Origin: an uncultured Bacilli bacterium
GTDB lineage: Bacteria > Bacillota_I > Bacilli_A > RFN20 > CAG-288
Reading direction: 5' to 3'
NCBI GenBank assembly: GCA_944349335.1
Contig: CALVMW010000001.1
Location: forward strand, 741,671-805,670
Length of the DNA: 64,000 nt
In this document: piece after piece, positions 4,187 to 63,891 of the stretch
Layout: every line of letters begins with the position of its first letter
Numbering within the stretch: position 1 is the first letter of the stretch
Notes under the pieces: model-generated
What the model was told of the DNA's origin: nothing
What the model saw: only the letters and a program-made list of their open reading frames with translations
The model's database searches: none
Translations under genes and position numbers: made by a program

Positions 4187-5764
4187 ATGGCTCAGAATGA
4201 TGTTGTCTTACAGAGTAAGCTCGAATACCTATCTCTAAATAAGGGTCAAAGGATACTTTATAAAATAGGTCACTTCTTCAAGAATACCCCTAAAGCTATC
4301 GGAAGATTCTTCTCGCGTATTCCTTCGAAAACGCGTAAAAAAGGTGCTGAAGTAGTTAGTGTCTTTAGAACAATCTCTGATGCAGCTAGATTCGGTGATA
4401 TATTCACACGAATTTCTTTTTTTGTTATGGGCTTCGGTCTCTTTTTTAGACATCAGATGATAAGAGGTTTTCTTTATTTTCTTTATGAGATTATCTTTAT
4501 TGTCTTTATGATTTTCGTCGGCGGCAGCGCCTTAACTCACTTAGCTAGTTTTGGTCAAGTCGGTTCGATGGTTTACACAATCGTTGATGATGCGACGATG
4601 ATGGATATTGAGACTACTGTTTTATTTGATAACTCTTTTACAATTTTACTTTATTCAATAATTACGATACTTTTAATCTTAGTTTTAGCTTTTTTATGGT
4701 ATAACCAACTTAGAGATTCAATTAAGCTTCAAAGGATGAGCTATATCGGTAAAACTGCTTCTGATAAAGCAACTTTAAAGAATGTTTTTGATAAAAGTTA
4801 TAGCAAAACTTTACTATTTATCCCAACTGTAGGTTTAGTTTTATTTACTATTATTCCTTTGATTATTGTCGTTTTGATAGCTTTTACTGATTACAATTCT
4901 AATCATTTAACTCCGGCTAGACTTATTGATTGGATCGGTTTATACAATTTCGAGATGATTTTCGCATCTACTGGAACATCAAATTCTTCTGTTCTATTAG
5001 AGGTTTTTGGTCAAGTTTTACTTTGGACTTTGGTTTGGGCTTTCTTTGCTACTTTCTCTAATTATTTCTTAGGTATGATTGTCGCTATGATTATCAATAC
5101 TAAAGGAATCAAACTTAAAAAATTATGGAGAACAGTTTTAATTACAACGATCGCTGTTCCACAATTTATTTCTTTAATGTTGATGTCAAATATGTTTTCT
5201 TTGCAAGGACCTATCAACGGATTATTGCAGTCTTTTGGATGGATCACCGAAAGTATTCCGTGGTTTACTGATGAATGGTTAGCGAGAGTAATGATCATTG
5301 TTATCAATACATGGGTAGGTATTCCTTATACTATGCTTATCTGTACTGGTTTACTTATGAATATTCCTGATGATTTATATGAATCAGCGAAGATTGATGG
5401 TGCTTCACCTGTAAAAACATATATGAAGATCACTCTTCCTTATATGCTTTTTGTTACTACTCCTTATCTTATTTCACAATTTGTTGGTAATATTAATAAC
5501 TTTAATGTTATTTACTTATTAACAAATGGAGGACCTTCTTTCACTTATTCTGGTTCTAATATCCCTTATCAGGTTGTCGGTACTAATGTCGGTAAAACTG
5601 ACTTACTTATCACCTGGATCTATAAGATGACAAAAGATTCTGTCAATAAAGATTATGGTATGGCTGCTGTTTTAGGTATTATCATCTTCGTAGTCGTCGC
5701 CTTCTTCTCCTTAATATTCTATAACCACAGTAATTCTGTAAAGAACGAGGAGGATTTCCAATGA
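4187..5764 (+). CDS. Sugar ABC transporter permease (MalF-like)
   Basis: Inner-membrane subunit of the maltodextrin-type importer. The coupling loop that docks on the ATPase is clear at about residues 399-415 (ESAKIDGASPVKTYMKITLP), matching the EAA motif. The protein has 525 residues, longer than the ~290-300 of simple sugar permeases. The extra N-terminal part (residues 1 to ~200) holds a basic cytoplasmic stretch and hydrophobic segments near residues 85-120 and 145-170, before the canonical core starting about residue 205. MalF of enterobacteria is also long but by a periplasmic loop, so the extension here is not obviously the same thing. Shine-Dalgarno AAGGAAG lies at 4174-4180. The stop overlaps the next start (ATGA). 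Confidence 0.9.
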   Translation: MAQNDVVLQSKLEYLSLNKGQRILYKIGHFFKNTPKAIGRFFSRIPSKTRKKGAEVVSVFRTISDAARFGDIFTRISFFVMGFGLFFRHQMIRGFLYFLYEIIFIVFMIFVGGSALTHLASFGQVGSMVYTIVDDATMMDIETTVLFDNSFTILLYSIITILLILVLAFLWYNQLRDSIKLQRMSYIGKTASDKATLKNVFDKSYSKTLLFIPTVGLVLFTIIPLIIVVLIAFTDYNSNHLTPARLIDWIGLYNFEMIFASTGTSNSSVLLEVFGQVLLWTLVWAFFATFSNYFLGMIVAMIINTKGIKLKKLWRTVLITTIAVPQFISLMLMSNMFSLQGPINGLLQSFGWITESIPWFTDEWLARVMIIVINTWVGIPYTMLICTGLLMNIPDDLYESAKIDGASPVKTYMKITLPYMLFVTTPYLISQFVGNINNFNVIYLLTNGGPSFTYSGSNIPYQVVGTNVGKTDLLITWIYKMTKDSVNKDYGMAAVLGIIIFVVVAFFSLIFYNHSNSVKNEEDFQ

Positions 5765-8253: not shown

Positions 8254-10791
8254 ATGGCAAGCTTAAAGTTAGAACACATATATAAGGTGTATCCTAATGG
8301 CACCAAGGCTGTTAATGATGTCTCTTTAGATATTAAGAATGGAGAATTTATTGTCTTTGTTGGACCTTCTGGTTGTGGTAAATCAACTACATTAAGAATG
8401 ATTGCTGGTCTTGAAGAGATAACAGCTGGCGAGCTTTATATTGATTCAACTATTGTCAATGATGTTGAACCTAAAGATCGTGATATTGCGATGGTTTTCC
8501 AAAACTATGCCTTATATCCGCATATGACAGTCTATGAAAATATGGCTTTTGGTCTTAAGCTTCGTCATGTTCCTGATGATATTATCCAGGAGAAAGTTTT
8601 ATGGGCGGCTGATATCTTAGGATTAAAAGATTATCTTGATAGAAAACCTCGTGCTATGTCAGGTGGTCAGAGACAAAGAGTCGCTTTAGGTAGAGCAATC
8701 TTAAGAGATCCGAAAGTCATGCTTTTAGATGAGCCTTTATCTAACCTTGATGCTAAGTTGAGAACTCAGATGCGCGCTGAAATAGCTAAATTACATCAGA
8801 GATTAAAAACTACTTTTATTTATGTTACTCACGATCAAACAGAAGCTATGACTTTAGGTAATCGTGTTGTAGTTATGAAATCTGGATGTATTCAACAAGT
8901 GGACACTCCGAAAAATCTTTATGATTATCCTTCTAATATCTTCGTTGCGGGCTTTATCGGTACACCGCAGATGAATTTCTTAGATTGTACTCTTTTAAAG
9001 AAGGATGATGAAGTTGTTATCCATCTTAAAAAGGCTGATGTTGATTTTACAGTTCCTTATAATTCACTTATTAAAGTTAATCCTAATTATCTTGATGGAA
9101 ATCATGATATTGTTATGGGTATTAGATGTGAGAATGTCCATTTAGTGAAAGATGAAGATAAGATGCTTTCTATGACAATTTCTCACTTTGAGGAATTAGG
9201 TTCAGAATCGTTAGCTTATGGTTCTATTGATGATATTAATGGTAATCCTATTGATGAATTATCAGTTATTTCTAAAGTCTTTGATAGATTAAATTATCAA
9301 AGCGGAGATCATGTTGCTATCGCTTTTGATATGGATCACACTTATTTCTTCGATAAAAAGACAGAGGAAACAATTATCCCTCGTATTCCTACTTATAATT
9401 CATTTGATTGTAAGGTTACAAAGGATAGTATCAAAGTTTTAGGTGAGACTATCCCTCTTCCGAAAGCTTTAATAAATAAGATTGAAGATAACGATAAAGT
9501 TTTAGAGTTACAGATTCCTAGTGATGCGATCACTATTTCTGAAGCGGGTGTAATTAAAGCTGAAGTTGTGAGAAATGAAGTAATTAATGATGTTAATTTA
9601 ATTCATTTAAAATCAGATAATCGTATCTACTTTATGAAATCTGATAAAAAGTATGAAGAAGGTTCAATAGTTAATATTGATATTGATTTTACAAAGATTA
9701 AAGTTTTAGATGGTGAGAAAGTTGTTTTAGAACCTATCTCTTCATTAGATAGTATGAAAGCCTACTTCTATAACTATCAAACAGTTATCAGTAAAGATAA
9801 TAATCCTGAGTTTGTGAAGTTTAGAGAAGATAAAGTTAAAGCAGCTCTTGATTATATGGATGCAAAGATTGCCCTATATAAACAAGATCATGAAAAAGAG
9901 ATCGCTGATATTAAGCAGATTTCTATCGCTGATGCTGAAGCTAAATTTGCTGAATTATGTAAGAATAATGATGCTTTAGTTGAAGAGAAGAAGAAAGAGA
10001 CTAAAGAGAAGATCGATGCTTTAACTAAGAAGTTTAAAGAAGATAAAAAACAAGCTAAGATTGCTAATGATAAACTTTTTGCAGAGAAGAAAGAACAAGA
10101 GAATAGAGAATATAAAGAGTTTAAAGCTAGCAACAATGATAAAGAGGCTTTAAAGAGAAGAAGTGATGAATATCATATCTTTAAAGATAATTTTGCTACT
10201 GATAGAGAAAACACTTTAAACCTTGCTATTAATTCTTTAACTATGGATTATGAAGCGCAGATTTCTTCTTTAAAAGCTTCTTTAAAACGTGAGATTGAAG
10301 TTTTAAATAAAGAGAAGAAAGATGCGAAAGAAAAGCTTAAAGAAGAAAGAAATCCGCAAGCTTATCTTGAAAAGAAATATAAGAAAGGTCTTAAAGCCTT
10401 AGAACAACAGCGTGAGCAAGCTAGAAAGCGTGCTGAGCTTGTCTTCTTCTTCCGTTTTGCTCAAAAGAAATATATTATGGCCTCTGATATTATTGCTAAT
10501 AAGCTTGTCCAGGGTTTAGGAACACGTGTATTTACTAAAGAATTTAGAATTGATTTCCCGCACGATGCTTATACTATTCGTTTAGATAACCAAGGCTTTA
10601 AAGTTAGAGTAGTTGATAATTACGATTATGGAAATACTTACTTTGTCAAAGTGGCTTATGAAGATAATGGTGAAAAGTATCTTTATATCAGAAATCAAGA
10701 GCCTTTAGAGGTTAATAAAGAAATCTCTATCGACTTTGATATTACAAGATGTCAAGTCACTGAGACAGGTATGAATATTAGGTTATATTAA
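8254..10791 (+). CDS. MsmK/MalK-type sugar ABC ATPase with a long coiled-coil C-terminal extension
   Basis: Energises the importer encoded upstream. The first ~370 residues are a normal MalK/MsmX protein: Walker A GPSGCGKST (37-45), Q-loop FQNYALYP, signature MSGGQRQR, Walker B VMLLDEPLSNLD, H-loop THD, then an OB-type regulatory domain. The family usually ends there, but this protein has 845 residues. A second TOBE-like beta segment (about 376-490) is followed by a Lys/Glu-rich coiled coil (about 505-715) and then another beta-rich domain to the end. No frameshift or internal stop separates these parts. The ATG follows the amylase stop after one base, with AAAGGAG inside the amylase gene. 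The role of the tail is unknown; oligomerisation or tethering are guesses. Confidence 0.9.
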   Translation: MASLKLEHIYKVYPNGTKAVNDVSLDIKNGEFIVFVGPSGCGKSTTLRMIAGLEEITAGELYIDSTIVNDVEPKDRDIAMVFQNYALYPHMTVYENMAFGLKLRHVPDDIIQEKVLWAADILGLKDYLDRKPRAMSGGQRQRVALGRAILRDPKVMLLDEPLSNLDAKLRTQMRAEIAKLHQRLKTTFIYVTHDQTEAMTLGNRVVVMKSGCIQQVDTPKNLYDYPSNIFVAGFIGTPQMNFLDCTLLKKDDEVVIHLKKADVDFTVPYNSLIKVNPNYLDGNHDIVMGIRCENVHLVKDEDKMLSMTISHFEELGSESLAYGSIDDINGNPIDELSVISKVFDRLNYQSGDHVAIAFDMDHTYFFDKKTEETIIPRIPTYNSFDCKVTKDSIKVLGETIPLPKALINKIEDNDKVLELQIPSDAITISEAGVIKAEVVRNEVINDVNLIHLKSDNRIYFMKSDKKYEEGSIVNIDIDFTKIKVLDGEKVVLEPISSLDSMKAYFYNYQTVISKDNNPEFVKFREDKVKAALDYMDAKIALYKQDHEKEIADIKQISIADAEAKFAELCKNNDALVEEKKKETKEKIDALTKKFKEDKKQAKIANDKLFAEKKEQENREYKEFKASNNDKEALKRRSDEYHIFKDNFATDRENTLNLAINSLTMDYEAQISSLKASLKREIEVLNKEKKDAKEKLKEERNPQAYLEKKYKKGLKALEQQREQARKRAELVFFFRFAQKKYIMASDIIANKLVQGLGTRVFTKEFRIDFPHDAYTIRLDNQGFKVRVVDNYDYGNTYFVKVAYEDNGEKYLYIRNQEPLEVNKEISIDFDITRCQVTETGMNIRLY

Positions 10792-17015: not shown

Positions 17016-18526
17016 TATTGTTGCATACCTGTTCTTACATTTATTACAGCTTGTTTAATTTTATCTTTATTTTCTTGACTTAAGATGTGAGTATTTTTTA
17101 TTTCTTCATATACTTCAGGGATGTTTTTATGAATGTACATATCGATATTGACTAAAGTATCATGAATTTTGTCGATAGGAACATCATCAATAAGTTTATC
17201 TTGAGCAATAAAGATATCGACTATCTCATCTTCCATTTTAAGAGGACTATATTGTTTTTGTTTTAATACTTCCATTAAAACAGCACCATGTCTCAATATA
17301 TTTTTAGTATTTTGATCTAGGTCTGAACCAAACCTTGAGAAATCTAATAATTCTAAATAATTGGCTATTTCAATTTTAATGGAGGAAGCTACTTCTTTCA
17401 TCGCTTTAATTTGGGCTGAGGAGCCGACACGAGAAACTGATAAACCAGAATCAATAGCCGGTCTTTGTCCCGAGTTAAATAAATCAGTATTTAGGAATAT
17501 CTGACCATCAGTTATTGAAATAACATTAGTTGGAATATAGGCAGAAATATCACCTTCTTGAGTTTCGATTATAGGGAGAGCGGTTATTGAACCACCACCT
17601 AATTTTTTATTTAAATGACAGGCTCTTTCAAGTAGACGAGAATGAAGGTAGAAAATATCACCAGGATATGCTTCTCTTCCCGGACTTCTTTTTAAAAGTA
17701 AGGATAAAGAACGATAGGCGACAGCATGTTTTGTTAGATCATCATAAACTATAAGAACATCTTTTCCTTGTTTTTCAAAATATTCAGCGATAGAAGTGGC
17801 TGCATAAGGAGCAACATATTGCATCGGTGCACTGATACTCGCTGAAGCATTGACGATTATTGTATATTTTAAAGCGTCTGTAGTTTTTAATTTTTCAACT
17901 ATATGGGCTATAGTTGAATCTTTTTGACCGATAGCACAATAAATGCAGATAACATCTTTATCTTTTTGATTGATGATAGTGTCTATTGCTATCGCAGTTT
18001 TTCCAGTCTGTCTATCACCTATTATTAGTTCTCTTTGTCCTTTACCGATAGGAATCATTGAGTCGATAGCTTTAATACCAGTTTCTAAAGGTTCGTTGAC
18101 GCTTTCTCTATCCATAATTGAAGGGGCATTATTTTCAATAGGAAGAGAATCATGACATTTAATCTCTCCTAAACCATCAATAGGTCTACCTATAGCATCT
18201 ATTACTCTTCCTAATAATTCTTTTCCTACGGGGATAGAGACTACTTTACCTGTTCTTCTTACTTCATCACCTTCGTAAATTTGATTATCATCACCTAAAA
18301 TAACAGCACCGATCGTATCTTCTTCAAGATTCATCACCATGCCATAAATATTGTCGTTAAAAATTAAAAGCTCACCATTCATTGCATCTTTTAAGCCATA
18401 AATAGTAGCGATACCATCTCCGATAGCGATAACTTTTCCAATATTATCTAAAGCTATTTGATCTTGATAATTATTTATTTCATCCTTTATAAGATTTTGG
18501 ATTATATCGATATTTATCTTATTCAT
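17015..18526 (-). CDS. atpA: F1Fo ATP synthase subunit alpha
   Basis: Nucleotide-binding, mostly regulatory subunit of the F1 head. P-loop [23 protein letters not shown] and the arginine-finger segment ISVTDGQIF-like (here [12 protein letters not shown] followed by [13 protein letters not shown]) are present. The start at 18526 gives 503 residues, the standard size, with GTGAGG a few bases upstream; a longer in-frame ORF back to 18568 would overlap atpH and has no ribosome site. Confidence 0.96.
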
Positions 18527-32451: not shown

Positions 32452-34473
32452 TTATATTAATGATTGTTTAGAATCACTAAATATTTTTTGATAATAGATA
32501 TAAGGGGCGCTGGAAATTAAAACTAAACCGATAATTATTAAAAGAGATAAGAGTACTTGTTGATAACTAAGAAGAGAGACAGCCACATTAATAGCATAAA
32601 AAGAAGTGATTGCTGAATTAATTAGAATAGTTAGTGGATAAGAAATGATTAGTGAAATAATAAAAGCAGATAAGATAAAAATGCCTATTTCTAATAGAGA
32701 GATTTCAACCTGTGTTTTGCTTTTCAATCCTAATAAACGAAGGTAATCGCTATCTAATTTTTCTGTTTTAATTTTAGATTCAAACATTACAAAGCATAAT
32801 ATAAAAGTAGAAATGAGTAATAGTATGAAGAAAGAGATTGAATAAGCTAAATAATAACTATCTCCAAATTGAGGGAATTGTTTATGTAGTAAATTTTGAA
32901 TAGAGTAGGCATCATTCTGTTCTAATTTAGCTAATGTTCTAACATCTTCTTTATCCATATCATTAGTAATGTATAAATTATAGGTGTAACCATACCATTT
33001 TATATTGAGTTCTTGATATTTTTGAGCTTGTTTTTGTGAGATAAAATTTACTGTCTGATAAGATGTAATATTGCTCCATGTGTCAAGTTCTTGTTCAAGT
33101 TTTTTAAGGTTTTCAGGAAGATCAGTATTATCCTGACCATTTTGAATTAGAAAATCAAGTAAAGGAGTATATCTATCAAAGTCAAATCCTGTATCTATAA
33201 CACCGGATATAACAACATCAAAAGCGATACTTGGTGGATGATTAGGAACTTGAATACGAGAATAAAGTTTTAAACCTATAACTTGTTCAGGAGAGCTAAT
33301 TTCATCTGCACTTATTATCAATCTATCTGATGTTTCAGTTTCTTCAAGAGTATCATATTTGTAACCAAAAGTATCTAATAAATAGAATTGATAGTCATTA
33401 ATCATAATTTCATTTTCTTTAGAAGGGAATTGACCAGCAAGCAGTTTATAGTTGGAAGGGAGATAAGATAAAGAATCGATAGCGATAGCAGAAGAATAGA
33501 CGCCATATCGATATACTCCTGGATCACGTGATAAAAGATTCATAGATAAATTATAAAAAGGAAGAGTTATTATTCCATAATTATTACCGATAACAGGAGT
33601 AAAATTAATATCTGTCTCATTTTGGAGGTTTCTTAAATCGTTATCATCAAAACCATGGTCGGGTTTTAAAGTTACATAATCATAATTCTTGATTAAATAA
33701 TTAGTTGTTACATCTTCTATGTTATAACGATAACTGCTATCGTTTATATTAAAAAATATAGTAGTTATAATCACTAAAATTAAAGAAAAGAGTGCTTTTT
33801 TTGTTGAAAAGAGATTTTTAAGAGCTATTTTTAATTTAAATATAAAGCTGAGATTATATATTTTACGAGTTGAAGAAATAACACTTTTATTTTCATTTCT
33901 TTGAGTAATAGTATTGTCGTTAACTTTTATAATACAAGCAGCATCTTGGTCAATTTTGCTTTCATCATCTGTTGTAATAATAATGGTTTTATCTGAACTT
34001 ATTTTTTTAATTAAAGAGTAGATTTCCTTATTTAATATTTCTTCATTAATAAATATTACTTCTGCATCTTTGACTAAAGCAGCTGTCAGTTTAACTTTGA
34101 AAAGTTCTTCTTTTGAAAGTTTATTTAATTTCTTTTTTAGTAAATTATTTACTCCAGTTATTTCACAAGCTGAAGAAATAATATTTTGTTTTTCGTCCTT
34201 TTTTATTTTTTGAATATCTAATAGCAATAAAAGATTATCTTTTACGTTTAATGAGAAAATTAAAGATTTGTCAGAAAGAAAATAAACTTTATTTAGATAG
34301 TCTTCGGCTTTTTCTTTTGATAATGATGAAAGATTTTCTTCATTATATGAAATATTAAGCTTATTATTACTATTCGGAATAAATGAAGATAAAATATTAT
34401 CACCAATTAAGTATGATATTCCAACTTTATCTAAAGAATAAAGATTGTTATTTATTTTAATTTTAAGATTCAT
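32452..34473 (-). CDS. FtsX/MacB-type permease fused to an ABC domain that has lost its ATP-binding motifs
   Basis: A 673-residue protein with start at 34473, seven bases after GAGAGG. Residues 1-190 align by eye with a LolD/MacB ATPase (compare the intact protein at 45476), but every nucleotide motif is changed. No Walker A lies at 19-30 (SYLIGDNILSSF). The signature LSGGQ reads LSKEE (119-123). Walker B reads VIFINEE (139-145), and the H-loop TH reads TD near 168. One helix follows at about 213-232, then a ~320-residue extracytoplasmic domain and three helices near the end, the FtsX/MacB topology. It is intact and uninterrupted, so probably a functional pseudo-ATPase rather than a pseudogene. 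It follows a 37-residue peptide gene by one base. Confidence 0.8.
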   Translation of the reverse strand: MNLKIKINNNLYSLDKVGISYLIGDNILSSFIPNSNNKLNISYNEENLSSLSKEKAEDYLNKVYFLSDKSLIFSLNVKDNLLLLLDIQKIKKDEKQNIISSACEITGVNNLLKKKLNKLSKEELFKVKLTAALVKDAEVIFINEEILNKEIYSLIKKISSDKTIIITTDDESKIDQDAACIIKVNDNTITQRNENKSVISSTRKIYNLSFIFKLKIALKNLFSTKKALFSLILVIITTIFFNINDSSYRYNIEDVTTNYLIKNYDYVTLKPDHGFDDNDLRNLQNETDINFTPVIGNNYGIITLPFYNLSMNLLSRDPGVYRYGVYSSAIAIDSLSYLPSNYKLLAGQFPSKENEIMINDYQFYLLDTFGYKYDTLEETETSDRLIISADEISSPEQVIGLKLYSRIQVPNHPPSIAFDVVISGVIDTGFDFDRYTPLLDFLIQNGQDNTDLPENLKKLEQELDTWSNITSYQTVNFISQKQAQKYQELNIKWYGYTYNLYITNDMDKEDVRTLAKLEQNDAYSIQNLLHKQFPQFGDSYYLAYSISFFILLLISTFILCFVMFESKIKTEKLDSDYLRLLGLKSKTQVEISLLEIGIFILSAFIISLIISYPLTILINSAITSFYAINVAVSLLSYQQVLLSLLIIIGLVLISSAPYIYYQKIFSDSKQSLI

Positions 34474-34474
34474 A

Positions 34475-34588
34475 TTAAATCCTCTCATAAGTAAAGCAGA
34501 GATTATTAATATTAGTTGTTATTTTTAAATTACTAAATGAAATAAGAAAAGAAGCTACAATTACTGCTGATTTAATATGTTTTTGCAT
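34475..34588 (-). CDS. 37-residue hydrophobic peptide, probably co-translated with the FtsX-type protein
   Basis: A short ORF with a very good ribosome site (AAGGAGG five or so bases before ATG 34588) and its own promoter (34632-34660). The stop codon TAA is one base from the ATG of the FtsX-type gene and within reach of its Shine-Dalgarno, so translation is probably coupled. The peptide begins MQKHIKSAVIVASFLISF: two basic residues and a hydrophobic core like a short signal peptide, followed by a polar tail of about 19 residues with a single Cys near the end. No double-Gly leader is seen. It could be a secreted signal or bacteriocin-like peptide, a membrane partner, or a leader peptide; the sequence does not decide. 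Confidence 0.6.
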   Translation of the reverse strand: MQKHIKSAVIVASFLISFSNLKITTNINNLCFTYERI

Positions 34589-34631
34589 ATTATTAGTCCT
34601 CCTTTTTATTTAGTAATATTTTATTTTAATC

Positions 34632-34660
34632 ATTATATGATATTAATAATATTTAATCAA
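34632..34660 (-). promoter_or_regulatory. Promoter for the peptide/FtsX-type operon
   Basis: On the minus strand TTGATT (34660-34655), a 17-base gap and a perfect TATAAT (34637-34632). Predicted start near 34625, leaving a leader of about 37 bases. Confidence 0.7.
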
Positions 34661-34864
34661 GTGTAAAAAAACTAAATCACATTTATAAATAACTAGAGAA
34701 TTTATTTTGTTCAAAATAATTAATATGTAATTAGAAAAAATTATTGTATTTATTGCAAATTTTCAAATTGTTTTTCTTATTATTCTTATCCTTTTTATTT
34801 AGTAGTAATAATTAAAAATAAAGTTAAATAATAAGATATTTTAATTTTTATGGTTGATATTTAT
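34661..34864. other. AT-rich divergent intergenic region
   Basis: About 200 bases of almost pure A/T between the minus-strand peptide operon and the plus-strand importer operon. No ORF with a ribosome site, no strong hairpin and no AGCGCT operator was found. Confidence 0.6.
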
Positions 34865-34873
34865 TGATATAAT
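34865..34873 (+). promoter_or_regulatory. Extended -10 promoter of the second sugar importer operon
   Basis: TGATATAAT, the same extended -10 as at 2660-2668. No convincing -35 is seen. It lies 25 bases before the ATG at 34898, which has CTAGGAG upstream. Confidence 0.55.
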
Positions 34874-34897
34874 TAAATAGTTACTAGGAGAAAGACG

Positions 34898-36343
34898 ATG
34901 GAAATAAAATTAGTAGCTTTAACAAAGAAATATCCCGGCGATGTTAAAAAGGGTATTAAAGATACAGTCGCTGTCGATAATCTTTCTATCGATATAAAGG
35001 ATGGTGAACTTTTAGGTTTATTAGGTCCTTCTGGTTGCGGTAAATCTACAACTTTATATATGATTGCAGGATTAAAAGATCCTACATCCGGTGAGATTTA
35101 TTTTGATGATGAAGATGTTACTGATTTAGAAGCAGAAAAAAGAGGTATCGGCTTAGTTTTCCAAAATTATGCTCTGTATCCTCATATGACAGTTTATAAA
35201 AATATCGCTTTCCCTTTAACAAATCTTAGAGTTAGCGCTCCTAAAAAAGCTTATAAGGCTCTTTCATATAAATTGATTCTTGACGTTATTTCAGATAGAG
35301 AAAGATTAAAAAAAGCAACTTTAAAAAGTGAAATAGATGGTAAGATAACTAAAGATAATGCGGCTTTATATATTGCTTATGAATATTCTATTTCAAAATA
35401 TTTAGCAAAGAAAATTTTCTCTTTAGGCCTTCATGATGATAATAATAAGGATAAAGTTGATGAATATAAAACTTATTTTGAAAAGAAATTACAAGAAGAA
35501 AAAGAAAAAATAAATAGTAAGCAAAAAAAGATCGATGATAATTTTGTTTATTTAGATGAAAATAATAATCCGCTTATTGTTAAAAGAAAATTGACAAAGG
35601 ATGAGATCGATAGATTGATTTTAGATGTCGCTAGATTAGTGCAGATCGATGAATATCTTGATCGTAAACCGGCGGAATTATCAGGTGGTCAGCAACAAAG
35701 AGTTGCAATCGCTCGAGCTTTGGTTAAAAAGCCGCGAGTTCTTCTTTTAGATGAGCCTCTTTCTAACTTAGATGCTCGTTTAAGAATTAAAACAAGAGAA
35801 GAGATTAAGAGAATACAAAGAGAGACCAATATCACTACTATTTTTGTTACTCATGATCAAGAAGAAGCCATGTCTATTTGTGATGATATTGTTGTTATGA
35901 AAGATGGTAAGATGATGCAATTTGGTGCTCCGCAAGATGTTTATAAGAATCCTTCTGATCTTTTTGTCGCTAAGTTTTTAGGTAATCCACCTATAAATGT
36001 TTTTAAAGGTTATATTAAGGATGATGCTGTTTTTATCGGTGATGAAAAGATCATGCATTTAGATCACAAAGAGAATTATCGTGATTGCTATGTTGGTATT
36101 CGTCCTGAAGCTTTTATTTTTGAACATGATAAAGAATATCATTTAACATTAAATATTGATTCTATCCAATCTACAGGTAAAGATACTTCACTTATTTGTT
36201 CTCATCCTCAATTTGTAGGTGATCAATTAAAAGTTGTCATTGATTCTGATTCTAATCCAGTTTTAGGAAAGAAAGATTTTGCTTTAAAGTATTCAAAAGT
36301 TTATCTTTTTGATATGAAAGATGAAAAGAGAATTGAGCTCTGA
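34898..36343 (+). CDS. MsmK/UgpC-type ABC ATPase with a helical insertion
   Basis: ATPase of a second sugar-type importer; 481 residues. Walker A GPSGCGKST, Q-loop FQNYALYP, signature LSGGQQQR, Walker B LLLLDEPLSNLD and H-loop THD are all intact, followed by an OB-type C-terminal domain. Between NIAFPL (about 105) and the signature (about 260) there are some 155 residues, where relatives have about 45. The roughly 110 extra residues are charged and helical (EKKLQEEKEKINSKQKK) and sit in the helical subdomain that contacts the permeases. The reading frame is continuous. The stop overlaps the next ATG (TGATG). No sugar specificity can be read from the sequence. Confidence 0.92.
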   Translation: MEIKLVALTKKYPGDVKKGIKDTVAVDNLSIDIKDGELLGLLGPSGCGKSTTLYMIAGLKDPTSGEIYFDDEDVTDLEAEKRGIGLVFQNYALYPHMTVYKNIAFPLTNLRVSAPKKAYKALSYKLILDVISDRERLKKATLKSEIDGKITKDNAALYIAYEYSISKYLAKKIFSLGLHDDNNKDKVDEYKTYFEKKLQEEKEKINSKQKKIDDNFVYLDENNNPLIVKRKLTKDEIDRLILDVARLVQIDEYLDRKPAELSGGQQQRVAIARALVKKPRVLLLDEPLSNLDARLRIKTREEIKRIQRETNITTIFVTHDQEEAMSICDDIVVMKDGKMMQFGAPQDVYKNPSDLFVAKFLGNPPINVFKGYIKDDAVFIGDEKIMHLDHKENYRDCYVGIRPEAFIFEHDKEYHLTLNIDSIQSTGKDTSLICSHPQFVGDQLKVVIDSDSNPVLGKKDFALKYSKVYLFDMKDEKRIEL

Positions 36344-62049: not shown

Positions 62050-63891
62050 ATGGAAAATAATGAGAAAATCCTTTCTGTCAAGGATCTAAAAATATCTTTT
62101 AAGACTGATGAAGGTTTAGTTCACGCCGTTAGAGGTGTTACTTTTGACCTTTATAAAGGTGAAACATTATGTATCGTCGGTGAATCTGGTTCTGGTAAAT
62201 CAGTCACTTCAAAAACTATCATGGGTATTTTACCTGGTAGTGCAGTTATTGAGGGTGGCAGTGTTATTTATCAAGGTGAAGATTTAACAAAAGTTGCTGA
62301 ATCTGAATTCCATCGTATTCGTGGTCATCAGATCGGTATGATCTTCCAAGATCCTCTTTCTGCTTTAAATCCTATTAAAAAGGTTGGTAAGCAGATTACT
62401 GAAGCTATGCTTATTGAGAGCGATCATAGAAAGAGACTATTTAAAGATCTTACTTCTAAAGAACAAGCTGCTTACAATAATCGTATCGTTCAGAAAAATA
62501 CTGAGATTTTAGCAGCTAAAAATACTATCTTATCTTCTGACTCTGATTATGATGATAAGATCAGAGAATTGCAGTTAGCTAATGATTCGATGAAAAAAGA
62601 AGGAACCGAAGCTTATAGAGATAAGGTTAGAAATATCGATCAGCAAATATTTAGACTTCAAGATGATTTAGCCAATACTAGTGATAAGGCTGAAAAAGCA
62701 GAGATTAGAGAGAAGATTTCTTCTTTAAATGCTCAAAGAGCTGCTTTGATGGCAGAATCTAATACTATCGCTAAAGATCTTATCGCTGATAATAATAAGA
62801 AGATCAAAGAATTAAATGCTGAAAAGAAGAAGAAGCATGCTGAATTAAAGAAAGCATCTACTAAGAAGATTGCTGAAGCTAATAAGAAATACCATGAGGA
62901 GATTAAACCTCTTCGTGAGGCATTAAAGGTTAAGAAGAAAGAAGCTAAAGAAGAAGTTTCTAAATTTTCAACCGATATTGCTGACTCTTATAAAGCTGAG
63001 AAGGATAAAATTAATAATGAATATGAAGTTAAGCTTACTGAGGCTAAAAACAGGGTAACTGAACTTCAAAATTCTTATAGTGAAGCTCCTAGTAAATCTA
63101 TTGCTAAGATGGAGCTTGATGAAGCTAAAACTAATTATCGTAATTTAGTTAAAGAAAAGAATGCTGCACTTTCTGTTGCTCATTCTAACTATGTTTCTAA
63201 GCTCCGTATCACAAGAGCAGAAGCGAAAGAGAGAGCTTTAAAAGTTATGAAAGAAGTCGGTATTCCTCAGCCGGAAATTCGTTTCAATCAATATCCTTTC
63301 CAGTTCTCTGGTGGTATGCGTCAAAGAATTGTTATCGCTATCGCTTTGATTGCTTCTCCGGAGATTTTAATCTGTGATGAACCGACAACCGCATTAGATG
63401 TTACGATTCAAGCTCAGATTTTAGAGCTCATCAATCGTATTAAAAAAGAACGTAATATGTCAGTTATCTTTATCACTCATGACCTTGGTGTCGTTGCTAA
63501 TATGGCTGATAGAGTAGCTGTTATGTATGCAGGTAAAATTGTTGAAGTTGGTAAAGTTGATGAGATCTTCTATGATCCACGTCATCCTTATACTTGGGCG
63601 CTATTATCTTCTATTCCTGATCTTGATTCGAAAGAGAGTTTAGAGTCTATTCCTGGCACTCCTCCTTATCTACTTAATCCTCCTAAAGGAGATGCTTTTG
63701 CAAGTCGTAACAAATATGCTTTAGCGATCGATTTTAAGGAGCAGCCTCCATTCTTTAAGGTTACTGATACCCATTATGCAGCAACTTGGTTATTAGATAA
63801 GAGAGCTCCGAAGATTGTTCCGCCGAAGATTGTGACGACGAGAATTAAGAATTCATTACAAAAGGCAGGTATCAAATATGAAGAAAAATGA
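62050..63891 (+). CDS. oppD: Oligopeptide ABC transporter ATPase OppD with a long coiled-coil insertion
   Basis: First ATPase of the peptide importer. Walker A GESGSGKSV, Q-loop FQDPLSALNP, signature FSGGMRQRI, Walker B ILICDEPTTALD, H-loop THD and the C-terminal oligopeptide-transport segment YAGKIVEVGKVDEIFYDPRHPYTWALLSSIP-type are present. Between TEAMLIESD (about 125) and the signature (about 417) there are roughly 290 residues where relatives have about 45. The extra ~245 are Lys/Glu/Ala-rich heptad-like coils (NAEKKKKHAELKKA). Long insertions in OppD/OppF are, as I recall, also known in mycoplasmas. The ATG is one base after the oppC stop, with AAAGGAAC upstream. The end overlaps the next gene by 14 bases. 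Confidence 0.93.
   Translation: MENNEKILSVKDLKISFKTDEGLVHAVRGVTFDLYKGETLCIVGESGSGKSVTSKTIMGILPGSAVIEGGSVIYQGEDLTKVAESEFHRIRGHQIGMIFQDPLSALNPIKKVGKQITEAMLIESDHRKRLFKDLTSKEQAAYNNRIVQKNTEILAAKNTILSSDSDYDDKIRELQLANDSMKKEGTEAYRDKVRNIDQQIFRLQDDLANTSDKAEKAEIREKISSLNAQRAALMAESNTIAKDLIADNNKKIKELNAEKKKKHAELKKASTKKIAEANKKYHEEIKPLREALKVKKKEAKEEVSKFSTDIADSYKAEKDKINNEYEVKLTEAKNRVTELQNSYSEAPSKSIAKMELDEAKTNYRNLVKEKNAALSVAHSNYVSKLRITRAEAKERALKVMKEVGIPQPEIRFNQYPFQFSGGMRQRIVIAIALIASPEILICDEPTTALDVTIQAQILELINRIKKERNMSVIFITHDLGVVANMADRVAVMYAGKIVEVGKVDEIFYDPRHPYTWALLSSIPDLDSKESLESIPGTPPYLLNPPKGDAFASRNKYALAIDFKEQPPFFKVTDTHYAATWLLDKRAPKIVPPKIVTTRIKNSLQKAGIKYEEK

Follow-up and report, generated by a model that had tools for sequence, protein, structure and literature searches.

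A 37-codon open reading frame (ORF) lying immediately upstream of the gene for a membrane protein of the MacB type (type VII ABC) is tentatively interpreted as a real gene, one that forms a two-gene unit with that ATPase-dead protein and whose peptide acts as its partner. The locus lies in the window, the 64,000-nucleotide stretch of DNA analysed here. This interpretation is favoured over that of a cis-acting leader, which is rated as less probable, because a signal-like ORF recurs before a second copy of the large gene without conserved coupling; the two interpretations are compatible. The gene pair looks lineage-specific and undescribed.

The preliminary description of this DNA had listed a promoter, a ribosome site and a short ORF encoding a hydrophobic core, a polar tail and one Cys, with its stop one base from the next ATG. 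All of these are present, on the minus strand, which was left unstated there, and a single base does separate the TAA of the ORF from the ATG of the 673-residue protein (Table 1). The peptide consists of the n-region MQKHIK, the hydrophobic core SAVIVASFLISFS and a polar tail of 18 residues; it contains no proline and a single Cys. The promoter match is uninformative, since sites resembling TTGATT-17-TATAAT are no commoner than in shuffled sequence (39 found in the 10-kb region, 56 expected). The large gene also has a longer in-frame start at 34488; the start at 34473 is preferred because the paralogue begins with the same MNLKI. The possibility that the ORF is the frameshifted 5′ end of the large gene was rejected, as the paralogue starts at this same MNLKI and the ORF is in another frame.

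Upstream of the ORF a MalK-like gene runs divergently from 34898, and two RDD-like genes are convergent with the 3′ end of the large gene. In the MalK-like ATPase (window 34898–36343) a charged insertion of about 130 residues separates the Q-loop region from the LSGGQ signature, and long coiled insertions are also present in the ATPases encoded at 8254–10791 and 62050–63891. A 19-nt direct repeat overlaps the ribosome site of the ORF; its upstream copy is not followed by a start codon, and the 15-nt core of the repeat occurs exactly only twice in the genome.

Table 1 Features of the two-gene locus, numbered by position in the window.
Feature	Position	Strand	Details
Promoter-like site TTGATT-17-TATAAT, sigma-70-type	34632–34660	minus	-35 TTGATT 34660–34655; -10 TATAAT 34637–34632; 10/12 matches
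19-nt direct repeat, copy A	34600–34618	minus	overlaps the AAGGAGG Shine-Dalgarno
19-nt direct repeat, copy B	34789–34807	minus	189 nt upstream of copy A; 95% identical
Shine-Dalgarno AAGGAGG	34598–34604	minus	7 bases; spacing of 9 nt to ATG 34588
37-codon ORF	34475–34588	minus	ATG 34588; TAA 34477–34475; translation MQKHIKSAVIVASFLISFSNLKITTNINNLCFTYERI, then stop
Predicted RNA hairpin	34472–34512	minus	within the end of the 37-codon ORF
Shine-Dalgarno of the large gene, GAGAGG	34486–34481	minus	
Large gene, 673-residue MacB/FtsX-type protein with degenerate nucleotide-binding domain	32452–34473	minus	
Pseudo-nucleotide-binding domain, residues 1–205 of the 673-residue protein	33859–34473	minus	alignment with intact relatives
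FtsX-like permease C-terminal domain (PF02687), residues 547–660	32494–32835	minus	26.7 bits; three of the four transmembrane helices

The 37-codon ORF is very likely translated, since short ORFs with a strong Shine-Dalgarno (SD) sequence directly upstream of genes are otherwise almost all known genes; the short gene of the preliminary description thus probably is one. The control sample was 482 kb of the same genome, made up of the window, two further regions and twenty 20-kb stretches. Eleven short ORFs in this sample, the 37-codon ORF included, have a perfect SD of at least six bases and end beside a gene, and the remainder were identified by sequence reading as L36, S6, L33, S14, S19, GroES, a CopZ-like protein and a few small proteins. 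The 37-codon ORF belongs to the top SD class of the sample. Among ATGs with an SD of at least seven bases, 62 are at, or in frame with, gene starts and 10 more open intergenic ORFs of at least 20 codons, mostly recognisable genes such as atpE and S17; only three open ORFs of at least 20 codons inside other genes. The leader of the L36 gene, TAAATAAGGAGGACTAAAATATG, is nearly identical to that of the 37-codon ORF, TAAAAAGGAGGACTAATAATATG.

Codon usage neither supports nor excludes coding and is uninformative or slightly negative: the per-codon log-likelihood ratio (LLR) of the ORF is -0.20, compared with a median of -0.23 for random intergenic ORFs and of 0.28 for 37-codon pieces of genes. The large gene itself reaches only 0.05, and the codon-usage test therefore serves this region poorly. 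It is considered quite unlikely that the ORF arose by chance in an A+T-rich leader and is untranslated or functionless, the large gene alone being real. Simulated intergenic-like sequence contains about 0.36 ATG ORFs of at least 37 codons per kb per strand, and the null-like codon usage and the failure to find a homologue in any genome sampled are what an accident would give, but the simulated frequency falls to about 0.001 per kb per strand for ORFs of that length that also have AGGAGG, such cases in the real genome are nearly all genes, and the paralogue too is preceded by a signal-like ORF.

The 37-residue peptide has no match in Pfam, NCBIfam or PHROGs. Searches of 147 genomes returned chance-level matches (best E 0.003), its own genome contains no homologue besides the peptide itself and, with one genome per species searched, its genus, family and order yielded no orthologue of either the ORF or the large gene. 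The leader contains no Rfam riboswitch or leader element, its fold as a whole is not significant (z -1.3), and no terminator-like site is present on either strand at 34450–34900.

The absence of ATPase motifs from the transporter, pointed out in the preliminary description, was confirmed by alignment with intact relatives, with every motif missing in both the 673-residue protein and its paralogue. Both copies have deletions that remove the A-loop segment, the D-loop and nine residues at the P-loop, while the Q-loop, the LSGGQ signature (to LSKEE and LCQED), the Walker B glutamate region (to INEE and IDGK) and the H-loop histidine are replaced. The protein scores 26.7 bits against the FtsX permease family PF02687 (cut-off 25.5) and only 11.8 bits against the ABC family PF00005 (cut-off 25), and in NCBIfam and PDB its sequence matches (BceA, MacB, LolD) start only beyond the P-loop. 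Within NCBIfam, the degenerate nucleotide-binding domain (NBD) comes closest to TIGR03608, the family of lactococcin 972 export ATPases, with a score far under the cut-off. Four hydrophobic segments (residues 221–239, 546–564, 591–609 and 641–659) are present, and the order of parts, namely an N-terminal NBD-type domain, a first transmembrane helix, a large outer domain and three C-terminal transmembrane helices, is that of MacB and the type VII ABC (ABC3) proteins, from which the protein differs in having lost all nucleotide-binding and catalytic motifs through deletions common to both copies.

A structure model was built from a 17-sequence alignment (pLDDT 66, pTM 0.45), an earlier model from two sequences having been discarded as too poor (pLDDT 37). 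In Foldseek searches its best full-length matches are MacB structures, the top ones being 5lil, 5lj7 and 5gko, with TM scores of about 0.5–0.6. By sequence and predicted fold the 673-residue protein is of the MacB type, but with these motifs lost it cannot function alone as an ABC ATPase.

Within the order, the sole full-length homologue is encoded in the same genome (G000:C1:604341–606407), about 170 kb away, and is 33% identical over its whole length; the two copies are joined with full support in the tree. Because the NBD deletions are common to both copies, the alignment places the ATPase-dead state before the duplication, and it has apparently been kept while the copies diverged to this level of identity. 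The shared deletions and the retention through such divergence argue against simple gene decay.

The arrangement first described as a candidate two-gene system recurs at the paralogous locus, where a signal-like ORF of 43 amino acids, MFKKMMLVTTITSLLIPFFNNTSIVVDNYKTINFSRDFKFNRQ, is separated by 48 nt from the start codon of the second large gene. The product of this ORF has a basic start, a 13-residue hydrophobic core and a polar tail, which is the architecture of the 37-codon ORF, and the cores of both peptides are within the range of the organism’s own exported proteins. It has no clear cleavage site, and its ribosome site is weak, falling below the SD threshold applied to the controls. The outcome that the preliminary description named as refuting, a downstream gene conserved without its peptide, is half seen: the large gene is conserved in the paralogue and a short signal-like ORF precedes it, but the peptide sequences are barely alignable (24% identity; shuffle p 0.06–0.23). 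As they are not significantly alike beyond composition, the alignment of the two peptides was rejected as evidence. Upstream regions were surveyed for the 103 genes of the 482-kb sample that have 150 nt or more of free sequence before the start. An ATG ORF of 30–60 codons is found near the start in 13 of the 103, and a signal-like one in three, namely the window gene, the paralogue and one other; with the 37-codon ORF left out, the chance of the paralogue having a signal-like ORF is about 1 in 100 (1 of about 101 control regions). Beside the paralogous locus, the stretch L061:6002–7501 is masked as N, beyond the start of a divergent secreted-protein gene near 5104.

Translational coupling of the two genes, as originally proposed, is plausible in the window copy and not conserved. 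The hairpin at the end of the ORF (-7.0 kcal/mol, z -1.6) pairs GAGA of the SD of the large gene and AU of its AUG. Opening the start region costs 8.0 kcal/mol compared with a typical 3.3, which is higher than in 28 of 30 other window genes and higher than in shuffles of the upstream 50 nt (P 0.013), although not exceptionally so when the SD is kept (P 0.19). The cost also exceeds that from synonymous resampling of the ORF (P 0.0075, with a resampling pool drawn from more biased genes). Coupling is thus probable for the window copy, but it is not a property of the system, because at the paralogue the ORF and the large gene are 48 nt apart and the start site, with an opening cost of 5.0 kcal/mol, is not unusually closed.

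The hairpin and the unconserved peptide are what favour the alternative of a cis-acting leader, in which translation alone would open the hairpin (simple or conditional coupling) and the peptide would be idle afterwards. The stop-start arrangement with the large gene agrees with it, as does the cost of exposing the paired downstream SD and AUG. It is nevertheless rated as somewhat unlikely: the paralogue keeps a signal-like ORF despite its longer gap and ordinary start site, the hairpin is unexceptional against the SD-fixed shuffles, and a chain of 37 residues would be too short for its hydrophobic segment to clear the ribosome much at the stop. As the segment would barely be out of the ribosome at that point, export sensing of the SecM, MifM or CutF type is disfavoured.

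Two described systems are precedents for such a leader. In Rhodobacter, the nascent exported protein CutF exerts translational control of the copper oxidase gene cutO and has a CxxxC motif and a proline-rich stalling C-terminus (PMC9973294). The locus described here resembles it in having a short upstream ORF on the same strand with an export-type N-terminus. A stem-loop that may shield the downstream SD, as in CutF, is predicted in the window copy only (z -1.6; P 0.0075–0.19, depending on the control). The locus differs in having neither CxxxC nor a proline-rich C-terminus and in its downstream gene, a pseudo-transporter. In Bacillus subtilis, BmrB acts on bmrCD by transcriptional attenuation via alternative stem-loops and an intrinsic terminator (PMC4191407). 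A small ORF immediately upstream of an ABC transporter-type gene is common to both cases (co-transcribed in the BmrB system), but the leader described here has no terminator-like site.

Operons of the lactococcin 972 type contain a gene for a secreted peptide beside one for an FtsX-like membrane protein. The candidate exported peptide next to an FtsX-like protein is a likeness to these operons; unlike them, the unit lacks a gene for an active ATPase, and it matches neither the bacteriocin family nor that of the membrane partner. The preliminary description had raised the possibility of a signal or bacteriocin, in which case the peptide would be the precursor and the MacB-like protein would export, sense or protect against it in a lactococcin 972-like manner. 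The export-like N-terminal segment, the 18-residue polar tail with one Cys, the sub-threshold match of the degenerate NBD to TIGR03608 and the secreted-protein gene that precedes some intact relatives in the class are in keeping with this. The suggestion found no backing in the searches, as the peptide has no match to a bacteriocin family in Pfam, NCBIfam or PHROGs and no orthologue, and it is judged very unlikely. No gene for a separate ATPase, a maturation protease or a sensor belongs to the unit, the large protein is itself ATPase-dead, and the paralogue’s peptide has no clear cleavage site. Moreover, MacB-family proteins are not thought to carry their substrate across the inner membrane (PMC5985334).

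None of the other genomes searched in the order (278 genomes) contains the cassette, and collections of genomes, viruses and plasmids yielded no relatives of the large protein. A search of the remainder of the class covered 395 genomes, sampled evenly from a larger group, and may miss some relatives. The relatives found there that are closest by profile (E 1e-26 to 1e-32; e.g. L128, L129 and L131) are intact fusions of 690–880 residues, encoded in adjacent pairs with closely similar NBD starts. These tandem ATP-binding/permease proteins from other orders are of the same length class and have a related outer domain. They differ from the copies described here in that their NBDs are intact, and alike within a pair in the stretch shown, and that the genes of a pair are adjacent, whereas the two copies here lie far from each other and lack an ATPase. 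None of 52 intact MacB-like relatives is preceded by a free-standing short ORF with an SD of at least five bases, a stricter measure by which the paralogue’s ORF would not be counted either, and the idea that short ORFs precede MacB-like genes generally was rejected.

Adjacent intact MacB-like pairs are found at L128:4958–9149, L129:2441–6601, L131:3700–8726, L134:3987–8896, L135:3030–8079 and L130:5306–10034. In the L128, L129 and L130 pairs the two NBD starts are nearly identical and the proteins diverge further on, which suggests heterodimers with gene conversion of the NBD. In some families the intact relatives stand behind a secreted-protein gene: a 225-residue secreted protein of no Pfam or NCBIfam family is encoded directly before the pairs at L128 (4181–4858) and L129 (6698–7375), and a WG-repeat lipoprotein precedes such pairs in another family (L131, L137). 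At L104, around 18086–18140, a strong SD (AAAAGGAGGTG) is followed by two ORFs of 21 and 3 codons, which may be the disrupted start of a gene.

Under the favoured reading, that of an acting peptide, ribosomes would start at the strong AAGGAGG and synthesise a peptide of 37 residues whose hydrophobic segment is of the export type. A ribosome finishing at 34475 would melt the weak hairpin and, after a single intervening base, begin the large protein. The peptide would be threaded into or across the membrane as a small partner, either an accessory subunit or a ligand, of the large protein; it probably resides in or at the membrane, and that it partners the large protein is a slightly less than even prospect. 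The closest working analogy is with the small transporter subunits of the AcrZ, KdpF and CydX type. As normal ATP binding and hydrolysis would be lacking, the large protein may be a membrane scaffold, a sensor or the non-driven half of a complex, and not a pump. Against this reading stand the lack of significant similarity between the peptides, the non-coding-like codon usage of the window ORF, the weak SD at the paralogue, the missing orthologue and the unconserved coupling. A bolder proposal, which we consider unlikely, is that a fast-evolving signal-peptide-like microprotein and a MacB-type protein without ATP binding make up a new two-component membrane device, duplicated and kept in one lineage.

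A tiny export-type gene of this kind is probably skipped by standard annotation, and the pair would be an example of a microprotein partner or leader found by layout and not by sequence. MacB/FtsX-type proteins have been described as turning ATP hydrolysis into movement outside the membrane. If the bolder proposal is true, the mechanotransmission architecture of MacB would be usable without ATP, with a peptide as ligand or subunit. An ATPase-free version of the MacB/FtsX type, conserved within one genome and tied to such a tiny gene, would in any case let the capabilities of that architecture without ATP be tested cleanly in a natural setting.
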